64,000 nucleotides of DNA. Origin: Thermus sediminis (GTDB lineage: Bacteria > Deinococcota > Deinococci > Deinococcales > Thermaceae). Location: positions 62,001-126,000 of the forward strand of contig NZ_QURO01000004.1 of assembly GCF_003426945.1 (NCBI RefSeq). Direction: 5' to 3'. The notes beneath the pieces were generated by a model, which made no database searches, was not told the DNA's origin, and worked only from the letters and a program-made list of their open reading frames with translations. Positions 5,092 to 26,333 of this stretch are shown here, one piece after another. A program made the translations under genes and the position numbers. Within the stretch, counting starts at the first letter, position 1, and each line of letters opens with the position of its first letter.

Positions 5092-5556
5092 ATGGTGGCC
5101 GAGATCTACGTTCTCCTGGTGGCGGCCCTGCCCGTGGTGGAGCTCCGGGGGGCGATTCCCCTGGGGGTAGCCCTGGGCCTCTCCCCTTGGGAGGCCTTTC
5201 TGTTGGCCCTCTTGGGGAACCTCCTGGTGGCCCCGGTGGCCCTTATCCTCCTCCCCTGGGCCCTTGGGGTGGCCACCCGGGTGCCCCTGCTCCTCCGGAT
5301 CTGGCGGGCCCTCGAGGCCCGGGTCCGCTTGAGGGGCGAGGAGCGGGTCCAGCGCCTGGGGGCCTTGGGCCTTTTCCTCTTCGTGGCCGTGCCCCTTCCC
5401 GGCAGCGGGGCCTGGAGCGGGAGCCTCCTCGCCGTGGTCCTGGGCCTCAGACGCCGCTACGCCCTCCTCGCCATCTCCCTTGGGGTGGTGGCCGCAGGCC
5501 TCCTGATCCTCCTCCTCACCGGCGGGGCCGTGGCCGGGCTAAACTACCTGGGATGA
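5092..5556 (+). CDS. Small multidrug export-type membrane protein (COG2426-like)
   Basis: A 154-aa integral membrane protein with four or five hydrophobic segments. It contains ALPVVELRGAIPLGVALGL near the N-terminus and the PLPGSGAWSGSLLA loop; both are typical of the small multidrug-export family whose members are largely uncharacterised. ATG 5092 is used; GTG 5086 in frame is an alternative. It overlaps the following fusion gene by 4 nt (ATGA), so the two are probably translated as one unit. Substrate unknown. Confidence 0.75.
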   Translation: MVAEIYVLLVAALPVVELRGAIPLGVALGLSPWEAFLLALLGNLLVAPVALILLPWALGVATRVPLLLRIWRALEARVRLRGEERVQRLGALGLFLFVAVPLPGSGAWSGSLLAVVLGLRRRYALLAISLGVVAAGLLILLLTGGAVAGLNYLG

Positions 5557-7214
5557 CCGCCCTCCTCCTTCCCCTGGCCTACCTGGTGGGGGCCCTCCCC
5601 TTGGGCTACTGGCTGGCCAGGAGGCGGGGGGTGGACCTGCGCACGGCGAGCCCCTACGCCCTGGGCCTGGAGAGCGCCCTGAAGCGGCTAGGTTTCGGTA
5701 CCCTTGTCCTTTCCTTCCTCCTGGACCTCCTCAAGGGCTACCTGCCCCTCCTCTTGGGTCGGGCCTTGGGCTTGGGGCTTGGGGAGCTCCTGCTCCTGGG
5801 GGTGGCCATCTACCTGGGCCACCTCTACCCCCTCCTCCTCCGGGACCCCTGGCCCCTGAGGGCCAAGGGGGCGGGGGTGCTCCTCGGGGTCCTGGCGGGC
5901 CTCCCCCTCGCGCCCGCCTTGGGGATGGTGCCCCTGGCCCTGGCCCTCGTCCTCTACGCCCTCACCGGCTACGCCTCCTTGGCCGCCTTGGCCCTGCCCC
6001 TGGGCCTCTTCCTGGTCCTCCTCTTCGGGGGGTTTGCCCTGGGCGAGGCGCTCCTAGGCCTCCTCCTCTTCCTCCTCGCCCTCTGGCGGTACAAGGAGAA
6101 CCTGGGGCGGATCCTCGAGGGCACCGAGCCCAAGCTGGGGGAGCCTCTGCCCCTCCCCTCGGAGAGGCAGGTGGTCTGCGCCTTCCTTATCCACCCCCTC
6201 ACCGTGGAGGACTTCTGGCAAAGCCCCCGCTTCCGCTGGCTTAGGCCCCTCGTGCGCCTGGGCCTCCTCAGGCAGGCCACCATGGAGCGCCTGGCCGAGC
6301 GCTTCCGCCCCATGAAGGTGGGGGAGGTGCGGGGGGTGAGGACGGCGGACGGCCGGGAGGTCCTCTGCCACCTCATCTCCGCCCCCCTCCTGCCCCACCA
6401 GATCAAGGGAAAGCCCGATCTGGCGGTGAAGCGGGCCATCCAGGGGGCGAGGCTCGCCAGGGAGCTTGGGGCCACGGTGGTGGGCCTCGGGGCCTTTTGG
6501 AGCGTGGTGGGGGAGAAGGGCCTAAGGGTGCAGGAGGCCGTCCCCGGGATAGAGGTCACCAACGGCGGGGCCTACACCGCGGGCACGGTGAGGGCGGCCA
6601 TCCCCAGGATCCTCGCCCACTTCGCCCAAAGCGGCAAGGACCCCAAGGCGGCCACGGCGGCGGTGGTGGGGGCGAATGGGGTGGTGGCCTTCGGCATCGC
6701 CCGGCAGATCGCCCCCTACGTGGGGCGGCTCATCCTGGTGGGACGGGACCGGGAGAGGCTTTCCCGGGCAGCGGAGACCCTGAAGAAGAACCTGGAAAGG
6801 AAGGGGGAGGCCCCGGAGATTCTGGTCACCACCGAGATCGGGGCCATCCGGGAGGCGGACCTGGTCTTCACCGCCACCAGCGACCCCAACCCCGTCATCT
6901 ACCCGGAGCACGTGAAGCCCGGAGCCTGGATCTACGACGAGGGCGTCCCCCCGGACGTGCACGGGAGCGTGCGGCAGGTGCCGGGGGTCAGGGTCATCCC
7001 CGGGGGGGTGGTGCGGCTTCCCGGGGAGGCCCGGGCCACCCTGGACCTCCACTTCGGGGCCCCGGACCAGGTCCCCGCCTGCCTGGCGGAGACCATGATC
7101 CTGGCGGCGGAAGGGGCCTTTGAGCGGAAGAGCCTGGGGGGCGAGGTGAAGGCGGAGAACATCCAGTTCTTCGTGGACCGGGCCGAGGCCCTGGGCTTTA
7201 AGGTGGTGGAGTAG
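5553..7214 (+). CDS. PlsY-like membrane domain fused to acyl-ACP reductase-like domain
   Basis: A 553-aa two-part protein. Residues 1-200 form a membrane domain like the acyl-phosphate:glycerol-3-phosphate acyltransferase PlsY. DLLKG and a KENLGRILEGTE segment resemble PlsY motifs, but the GSGN motif (here TASPYALG) and the GGKG motif (here LRAKGAG) are lost, so acyltransfer activity is doubtful. Residues about 207-553 resemble cyanobacterial long-chain acyl-ACP reductase (AAR, which makes fatty aldehydes): a nucleotide-binding VVGANGVVAFG near 370-380, GGVVRLPGEA, and PACLAETM with Cys510 at the position of the AAR catalytic cysteine. ATG 5553 overlaps the upstream stop. A canonical plsY exists separately at 25734. 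The role is unknown; fatty-aldehyde formation at the membrane is an inference. Confidence 0.75.
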   Translation: MTALLLPLAYLVGALPLGYWLARRRGVDLRTASPYALGLESALKRLGFGTLVLSFLLDLLKGYLPLLLGRALGLGLGELLLLGVAIYLGHLYPLLLRDPWPLRAKGAGVLLGVLAGLPLAPALGMVPLALALVLYALTGYASLAALALPLGLFLVLLFGGFALGEALLGLLLFLLALWRYKENLGRILEGTEPKLGEPLPLPSERQVVCAFLIHPLTVEDFWQSPRFRWLRPLVRLGLLRQATMERLAERFRPMKVGEVRGVRTADGREVLCHLISAPLLPHQIKGKPDLAVKRAIQGARLARELGATVVGLGAFWSVVGEKGLRVQEAVPGIEVTNGGAYTAGTVRAAIPRILAHFAQSGKDPKAATAAVVGANGVVAFGIARQIAPYVGRLILVGRDRERLSRAAETLKKNLERKGEAPEILVTTEIGAIREADLVFTATSDPNPVIYPEHVKPGAWIYDEGVPPDVHGSVRQVPGVRVIPGGVVRLPGEARATLDLHFGAPDQVPACLAETMILAAEGAFERKSLGGEVKAENIQFFVDRAEALGFKVVE

Positions 7215-7879
7215 TGTGGCTCCTCCTTTCCCCCACCCGCCTCGAGGCCCCCTTCCTAAGGGGGGAGCCCTTCGCCTTCCTGGTCTGGAGAGGGCTTAGG
7301 GGTGAGGGCTTCGTCTACCTGGAGACCGGGGTGGGCAAGGTGAACGCCGCCATGGCCCTCACCGCCTACGCCCTCAGGCACCCGGTGGAGAGGGCCCTCC
7401 TCTTCGGCCTCGCCGGGGCCTACCCGGGCTCGGGCCTCGCCCCGGGCCAGCTGGTCCTCATCGGGGAGGAGGTGGAGGCGGACCTGGGCCTCCGGGAAGG
7501 CCTGGAACCCCTGGGCTTTCCCGCCCTCAGGAAGGGAGGGAAGCGCTACTACAACCGCTTTCCCCTAGACTCAGCCCTCACCGCTTCCCTGGCGGAGGCC
7601 CTGGGCCTAACGGTGGTCACCGGCCTCACCCGGGACCTGGTCTCGGAGAGCCCGGGGGAGGCCGCCGCCTTGGCCGAGGGGTGGGGGGCCCAGGTGGAGA
7701 GCATGGAGGGGGCGGCCTTCGCCCGGGCCTGCCTGGCCCTGGGGCTCAGGGGGGCGGAGCTCAGGGCCATCTCCAATCCCGCCGGGGTGCGGGACAAGGG
7801 GGCCTGGCGGGTGGAGAAGGCGGTGAAGAGCCTGGGGGAGGCCCTTCTCCGCATCCTGGAAGGAAGGGGAGGGCCTTAG
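7214..7879 (+). CDS. mqnB: Futalosine hydrolase
   Basis: Nucleosidase that removes hypoxanthine from futalosine in the alternative (Mqn) menaquinone pathway, which Thermus uses. The 221-aa protein has the purine nucleoside phosphorylase fold, with VYLETGVGKVNAAMALTAYAL, ALLFGLAGAYPGSGLAPGQLVL, QVESMEGAAFARACLALGL and a late catalytic AISNPAGVRDKGAW. The start GTG 7214 overlaps the last base of the fusion-gene stop codon, so it is probably in the same operon. No other mqn gene is in the window. Confidence 0.88.
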   Translation: MWLLLSPTRLEAPFLRGEPFAFLVWRGLRGEGFVYLETGVGKVNAAMALTAYALRHPVERALLFGLAGAYPGSGLAPGQLVLIGEEVEADLGLREGLEPLGFPALRKGGKRYYNRFPLDSALTASLAEALGLTVVTGLTRDLVSESPGEAAALAEGWGAQVESMEGAAFARACLALGLRGAELRAISNPAGVRDKGAWRVEKAVKSLGEALLRILEGRGGP

Positions 7880-25733: not shown

Positions 25734-26333
25734 GTGATTGGGGCGCTACTTGTTCTCCTGGTGGCCTACCTCTTTGGCTCCATCCCCGCCGGGGTTCTGG
25801 TGGCCCGGACCTATGGGGTGGACATCCGCAAGGTGGGCTCCGGCAACATCGGGGCCACCAACGTCCTCAGAACCCTGGGCTGGGGGCCGGCCTTGGTGGT
25901 GGCCTTCTTTGATGTGTTCAAGGGAGGCATCGCCGTCCTCGTCGCCCGGGCCTTGGGGCTGGAGGGCTGGCTTTTGGGAGGGGTGGCGGTGGCGGCGGTT
26001 TTGGGCCACAACTACTCCCTCTTCCTGGGGTTCAAGGGGGGGAAGGGGGTGGCCACCAGCTTCGGCGCCCTCCTCTTCCTGGACCCGATCCTGGCCCTTT
26101 GGACCTTTCCCATCGGGGTCAGCGTGACCCTCCTCACCCGCTACGTGTCCGCGGGGAGCATGACGGGGGGTGTGGCGGCCCTGGTCCTCTCCCTGGCCTT
26201 GGGAAGGCCCCTTTGGGAGGTGGCCACGGTCTTCCTCATGGCGGCCCTCATCTTCTTTACCCACTGGGAAAACCTCAAGCGTCTTCGGGAGGGAACGGAG
26301 AGGCGGTTTGGGGAGCGGGTGGAGGTGCGCTAG
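25734..26333 (+). CDS. plsY: Glycerol-3-phosphate acyltransferase PlsY
   Basis: Transfers the acyl group from acyl-phosphate to glycerol-3-phosphate, the first step of phospholipid synthesis, in the inner membrane. The 199-aa protein has about seven helices and all three catalytic motifs: VGSGNIGATNVLRTLG, GHNYSLFLGFKGGKGVAT and FTHWENLKRLREGTE, plus DVFKGG. These intact motifs contrast with the degenerate PlsY-like domain in the fusion at 5553. Start GTG 25734 is consistent with the -10 eight nt upstream. Confidence 0.95.
   Translation: MIGALLVLLVAYLFGSIPAGVLVARTYGVDIRKVGSGNIGATNVLRTLGWGPALVVAFFDVFKGGIAVLVARALGLEGWLLGGVAVAAVLGHNYSLFLGFKGGKGVATSFGALLFLDPILALWTFPIGVSVTLLTRYVSAGSMTGGVAALVLSLALGRPLWEVATVFLMAALIFFTHWENLKRLREGTERRFGERVEVR

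Follow-up and report, generated by a model that had tools for sequence, protein, structure and literature searches.

A PlsY-like membrane domain joined to an acyl reductase-like domain in Thermus sediminis: a candidate enzyme of alkylamine lipid synthesis

Gene organization and family matches of the fusion

The window, i.e., the whole stretch of 64,000 nucleotides of Thermus sediminis DNA that was analyzed (contig NZ_QURO01000004.1), contains a gene whose product combines a PlsY-like membrane domain with a domain resembling the cyanobacterial acyl-ACP reductase (AAR). This gene, its immediate neighbors and the separate plsY gene of the window are listed below.

5092–5556, + strand: small multidrug exporter (PF06695), upstream, with an ATGA overlap with the fusion gene at 5553–5556; local context only
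5553–7214, + strand: PlsY-like/acyl reductase-like fusion gene, a single uninterrupted orf (553 aa; the coordinates include the stop codon)
5553–6149, + strand: PlsY-like membrane domain, residues 1–199 (PF02660, E 5.4e-26), modeled with about seven membrane helices and with a TM-score of 0.84 (by target length) to 5xj7, the acyl-phosphate form of PlsY
5820–5822, + strand: codon of His90, equivalent to the acyl-phosphate contact His92 of PlsY; invariant in 34 fusions
5859–5870, + strand: codons 103–106 (R-A-K-G), at the place of the PlsY GGKG loop; Arg103 is invariant in 34 fusions
6165–7211, + strand: predicted NADPH-dependent acyl reductase domain of the AAR/PigE type, residues 205–553, assigned from profile, PDB-sequence and Foldseek matches and from the tree
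7080–7082, + strand: codon of Cys510 (VPACLAET), aligned to Cys294, the catalytic residue of cyanobacterial AAR
7214–7879, + strand: mqnB, futalosine hydrolase (TIGR03664, above cut-off), downstream, with a 1-base overlap at 7214; local context only
25734–26333, + strand: separate canonical plsY (GSGNIGATN, GGKG, HWENL; E 7e-50)

A sequence-only reading had proposed that one gene carries both domains, and the intact frame and the matches of its two halves agree with this. Residues 8–187 passed the gathering score of PF02660 (92.1 bits against 24.1), but the protein did not reach the equivalog cut-off of TIGR00023, which denotes functional PlsY (68.7 vs. 137.2 bits). The C-terminal half matched the PigE reductase domain (E 9e-32), with 110.3 bits against the 850 of the PigE equivalog NF053554; the fusion protein has no aminotransferase domain. 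The likeness of this half to AAR proved significant in the profile search (TIGR04058, E 5e-14), although its 52.4 bits lie far under the equivalog cut-off of 449.7. The sole Pfam cut-off passed by the C-terminal half was that of PF01488, Shikimate_DH (31.1 bits, cut-off 24.3). A search of PDB sequences returned PlsY 5xj5 (E 8e-21), PigE 4ppm (E 2e-13) and AAR 6jzu (E 7e-12).

An AlphaFold2 model of the full chain, built from an alignment of 22 relatives (mean pLDDT 90.2, pTM 0.88), recovered both the AAR and the PlsY folds. Foldseek ranked AAR at the top (6jzz, E 1.9e-18, TM-score 0.76 by target length), followed by a domain of the carmabin NRPS and then by PlsY; the C-terminal half has the three-domain AAR fold.

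With cyanobacterial AAR (TIGR04058; PDB 6jzu) the fusion protein shares the fold and the position of the catalytic Cys, likely also the use of NADPH and probably a fatty aldehyde product, but it is only about 24% identical, remains below the equivalog cut-off, carries a membrane domain, and its NADPH motif region reads G373-ANG-VVA, i.e., two glycines followed by Ala (GxxGxxA) instead of the GxxGxxG of AAR. With PlsY (PF02660; PDB 5xj5–5xj8) it has in common the whole membrane fold, the acyl-phosphate His92, DxxK(G) and the C-terminal GTE, and in the Deinococcota fusions also the basic residue and the final Gly of the loop; the differences are that every fusion has Arg in place of the first GGKG glycine, that the Deinococcota proteins have lost the residues for glycerol 3-phosphate (G3P), and that a reductase domain is added. 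Proteins of the PigE type (NF053554; PDB 4ppm) pair a related reductase domain with a class III aminotransferase. PigE, however, is a soluble enzyme of prodigiosin synthesis that includes the aminotransferase in the same chain, whereas the window protein has the PlsY part instead and its candidate aminotransferase is a separate gene. The terminal reductase-like domain TAD of the carmabin NRPS (PDB 9e4s) is similar in fold (Foldseek E 1e-13), but acts in an NRPS and is 17–19% identical to the C-terminal half.

The gene had also been described as coupled to the exporter and mqnB. The overlaps are real, but this neighborhood was found only in Thermaceae and Marinithermaceae, and being local it has no weight for function; the Thermus operon (exporter, mqnB, rplT) was rejected as a functional clue on this ground. 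In Trueperaceae the fusion gene adjoins apparent prmA and rsmE genes. The normal plsY claimed at 25734 is confirmed and has canonical motifs. In total, four PF02660 proteins are encoded in the Thermus genome, two of them outside the window (G000:C4:470422-470931 and 1979757-1980173), and the tested Thermus genomes each have four, compared with one in the Armatimonadota fusion genomes.

Conservation of PlsY residues among the fusions

In PlsY, acyl-phosphate is contacted by His92, the backbone of the GGKG loop and Thr41, and G3P by Ser35, Arg45, Lys104, Asn180, Ser142 and His177 (PMC5700162). We compared the corresponding positions in 34 fusions from three phyla, 22 of them from Deinococcota and six from Armatimonadota. 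H90, D58, K61, R103, E192 and C510 are invariant. The PlsY DxxK pair and the terminal Glu are thus unchanged in all 34 proteins, the first Gly of GGKG (Gly102) is replaced by Arg in every one of them, and the placing of Cys510 at the catalytic position, proposed from the window alone, holds throughout. In the Deinococcota fusions the GGKG loop has become RAKG or RGRG, with the basic residue and the last Gly retained. At the acyl-phosphate site the His (34/34) and the loop's basic residue are kept, while Gly102 is changed to Arg and, in Deinococcota, Thr41 to Glu.

The G3P site is less uniform. At the places of Ser35, Arg45, Lys104, His177 and Asn180 the window protein has P34, K44, K105, Y180 and N183, and so lacks the full set of G3P-binding residues, which within the fusions is intact only in Armatimonadota. 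In the Deinococcota and Bacillota fusions Ser35 and Thr41 are gone, mostly together with His177 (in Deinococcota, Ser35 was found in 1/22, Thr41 in 0/22 and His177 in 5/22 proteins). The Armatimonadota fusions have Ser35, Arg45, Lys104, His177 and Asn180 in 6/6 cases and Thr or Ser at position 41, and in all six genomes the fusion is the sole PF02660 protein. These genomes are probably draft assemblies, so a second plsY may have been overlooked in one of the six, which is unlikely for all six. Thus, the PlsY part of the Armatimonadota fusions very likely still acylates G3P, and we infer that the ancestral fusion probably combined a functional PlsY with a reductase, the Thermus form having specialized later.

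These data refine the description of the N-terminal half as a degenerate PlsY. The loss of the G3P residues fits it in Deinococcota, but His90 is kept in 34/34 fusions, an invariant Arg has been gained and the Armatimonadota copies are intact. Similarly, of the motif changes listed for Thermus, the loss of GGKG and the presence of DLLKG and KENL..GTE stand, whereas the loss of GSGN is only partly general (SPYA in Thermus, xYN or xHN in most relatives) and KEN is often KxS in Trueperaceae.

Distribution, phylogeny and associated genes

The survey of Deinococcota suggested earlier revealed that the fusion is widespread there and also occurs in a few Armatimonadota and Bacillota. Matches were found in 111/111 Deinococcota genomes examined, a set containing no Deinococcaceae, and nearly all of them spanned both halves, which rules out a frameshift artefact or chance. 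Four of the 111 genomes gave weak matches only, of the strength expected for canonical PlsY; the other partial matches were mostly in fragmented assemblies. In Armatimonadota, the stand-alone reductase was detected in about 175 of 201 genomes (E < 1e-40) and the fusion in six, so that about 181 have either form. One Bacillota class contained the stand-alone reductase in about 77 of 121 genomes and the fusion in six. Run against 14 named control genomes, the AAR profile gave matches in four only (S. elongatus, Thermus composti, Deinobacterium chartae and M. jannaschii).

A maximum-likelihood tree built from 83 reductase domains placed the 34 fusions together in one clade (support 100/100), in which the Deinococcota proteins were nested (100/99) and the Armatimonadota fusions branched outside them. 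A long branch of 1.85 changes per site separates this clade from the stand-alone reductases, and for this reason the same function of both forms is not assured. On the other hand, of nine fully searched genomes only one, a probable Thermaerobacter MAG, had both a fusion and an unambiguous stand-alone copy; that the two forms so rarely coexist suggests that their roles are equivalent.

Ten complete orfs from sampled Bacillota genomes encode an N-terminal class III aminotransferase followed by a C-terminal reductase of the fusion's type. The aminotransferase halves are 43–49% identical to a Thermus protein encoded outside the window (G000:C4:481269-482510). The ten proteins are about 880–1450 aa long (L267:6178-8901 and L270:4149-7313, also in L266, L268, L269 and L271–L275), and their hosts presumably include Symbiobacterium and Thermaerobacter. 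In PigE-like reductase-aminotransferases of Proteobacteria the aminotransferase half also best matched this Thermus protein (306 vs. 214 bits). It is the only Thermus class III aminotransferase for which all best matches are below curated cut-offs and include PigE; three other ones, clustered within about 11 kb, were rejected as candidates, as they match GABA-type and PRK06062 families. Orthologues, recognized by length and score, were present in 25/25 sampled Thermus genomes (one of them fragmented), in 4/4 Marinithermaceae-type genomes and in about 35 of the 42 Armatimonadota and Bacillota genomes that have a reductase. None was found in 12 sampled genomes of three further Deinococcota families (f2, f3, which is Trueperaceae, and f5), where the fusion is kept. 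It should be mentioned that the Thermus gene (L278:9267-10511) lies directly downstream of a gene for a putative hotdog-fold acyl thioesterase (L278:10521-10919), judged by sequence inspection, which points to a possible lipid link.

Another gene associated with the reductase encodes a 300-aa protein (G000:C4:449788-450672; L253:9765-10679), present in 41/41 Deinococcota relatives, the genome of the window included. As read by inspection, in Deinococcota it is usually the first gene of the operon efp-accB-accC-nusB-folD. The stand-alone reductase adjoins it in 14/20 Armatimonadota and 7/14 Bacillota loci, and in four sampled Bacillota loci it is directly upstream of the aminotransferase-reductase gene. 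All 121 genomes of the Bacillota class contained the 300-aa gene, including those without a reductase in the profile table, some of which have the aminotransferase-reductase form. Presence and absence thus do not discriminate there, the gene was rejected as a strict partner by this measure, and adjacency alone is informative. The protein had no match in Pfam, NCBIfam or PDB sequences; its model (pLDDT 93.9) revealed in a fold search only a weak two-domain Rossmann-type likeness, including to AAR (TM 0.47) and glutamate dehydrogenases, by which no function could be assigned.

Possible role in the synthesis of alkylamine lipids

In Thermus and Meiothermus, the main phosphoglycolipids are of the N-glyceroyl-alkylamine type (PMC3398001, PMC3035268), which has been described as an unambiguous chemical marker for the Deinococcus-Thermus line (PMC3035268). 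All phospholipids of Chthonomonas calidirosea (Armatimonadota) are also of this type (PMC3367263), and such lipids have been reported from Moorella thermoacetica and several Bacillota (PMC13274423 and its reference 43). The reductase family is found in the same three phyla, a match at the phylum level that involves few lipid-analyzed species, the lipid and the gene data being mostly from different species and genomes. According to a paper of 2022, it was not yet known which enzymes make the third chain in the lipids of T. thermophilus (PMC9636437).

We propose, with a probability of about 0.58, that the fusion is a membrane-bound NADPH-dependent fatty-acyl reductase providing the aldehyde for the alkylamine of these lipids; its substrate, its product and its place in alkylamine synthesis are what we infer. 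The PlsY-like domain would hold the activated acyl chain, probably as acyl-phosphate, or may only anchor the protein in the membrane next to acyl-ACP. In the cytosolic AAR-like domain, Cys510 would take the acyl group of PlsX-derived acyl-phosphate or of acyl-ACP as a thioester, and NADPH would reduce it to the fatty aldehyde, a mechanism established for AAR (PMC9743570). The class III aminotransferase could then convert the aldehyde to the alkylamine, to be amide-linked to glyceric acid, and the 300-aa protein would probably act in some further step. The membrane domain might serve to place the reductase near the pool of acyl-phosphate, or at the membrane as the site at which its product is used. 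That the aldehyde is transaminated to an amine is suggested by the aminotransferase-reductase fusions of Bacillota and the PigE-like pairing in Proteobacteria. The link to unusual Thermus lipids anticipated in the sequence-only reading is supported for Deinococcota, but the best-supported fate is the alkylamine rather than long-chain lipids in general.

Other interpretations have to be weighed against this one. The aldehyde could instead serve the synthesis of long-chain diols, reported in Meiothermus (PMC3035268) and probable in Truepera (PMC3072082), and in its favor some families retain the fusion without the Thermus-type aminotransferase; still, the aminotransferase-reductase fusions of Bacillota and Proteobacteria favor amines, and nearly all Armatimonadota carry a reductase of this family, with alkylamine lipids in the only member of the phylum that has been studied, so we regard diols as unlikely. 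It is equally improbable that the PlsY-like part remains an acyltransferase for G3P or another acceptor, uncoupled from the C-terminal half and merely co-located with it as a second acyl user. The Armatimonadota fusions, with Ser35, Thr/Ser41, Arg45, Lys104, His177 and Asn180 kept in the only PF02660 protein of all six genomes, would suit this, but most Deinococcota fusions have lost residues reported to be needed for activity (PMC5700162) and a canonical plsY exists beside the fusion.

Even more doubtful is the assignment of the C-terminal half to another NAD(P)-dependent enzyme of the shikimate dehydrogenase/glutamyl-tRNA reductase superfamily that does not act on fatty acyl groups. The remoteness from AAR (23–24% identity), the missed AAR and PigE equivalog cut-offs and the single Pfam match to PF01488 would allow it; against it speak the AAR chains as best fold matches among solved structures (E 2e-18), the invariance of Cys510 and the acyl-binding membrane domain as its partner.

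A narrower version of the proposed reductase, which we put forward tentatively, is a fatty acyl-phosphate reductase, in which the PlsY-like domain would pass PlsX-made acyl-phosphate straight to Cys510, the Armatimonadota protein doing both jobs and the Deinococcota one having lost the acyltransferase half. If this is true, the routes to ester lipids and to alkylamine lipids would diverge at acyl-phosphate, and one Armatimonadota protein would both acylate G3P and reduce the acyl group. A possible evolutionary route is the fusion of a phospholipid acyltransferase to a reductase, to which it was later subordinated. The alkylamine proposal would supply three candidates for the third-chain gap in a genetically tractable group (the reductase fusion, the class III aminotransferase and the 300-aa partner), and the findings predict which lineages are expected to make N-glyceroyl-alkylamine lipids.

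The lipids of D. radiodurans are related to the N-glyceroyl-alkylamine type of Thermus and Meiothermus (cited in PMC3398001 and PMC3035268). No Deinococcus was among the named genomes that matched in a pattern scan. In a plasmid of Deinococcus sp. QL22 (L135:5990-6130), a 40-residue remnant of a fusion-type reductase (VTVTNGGAFTSGTVQAAIPKLLEHF) directly borders a transposase; the remnant is typical of the fusion clade and hints that Deinococcus has or had the gene.
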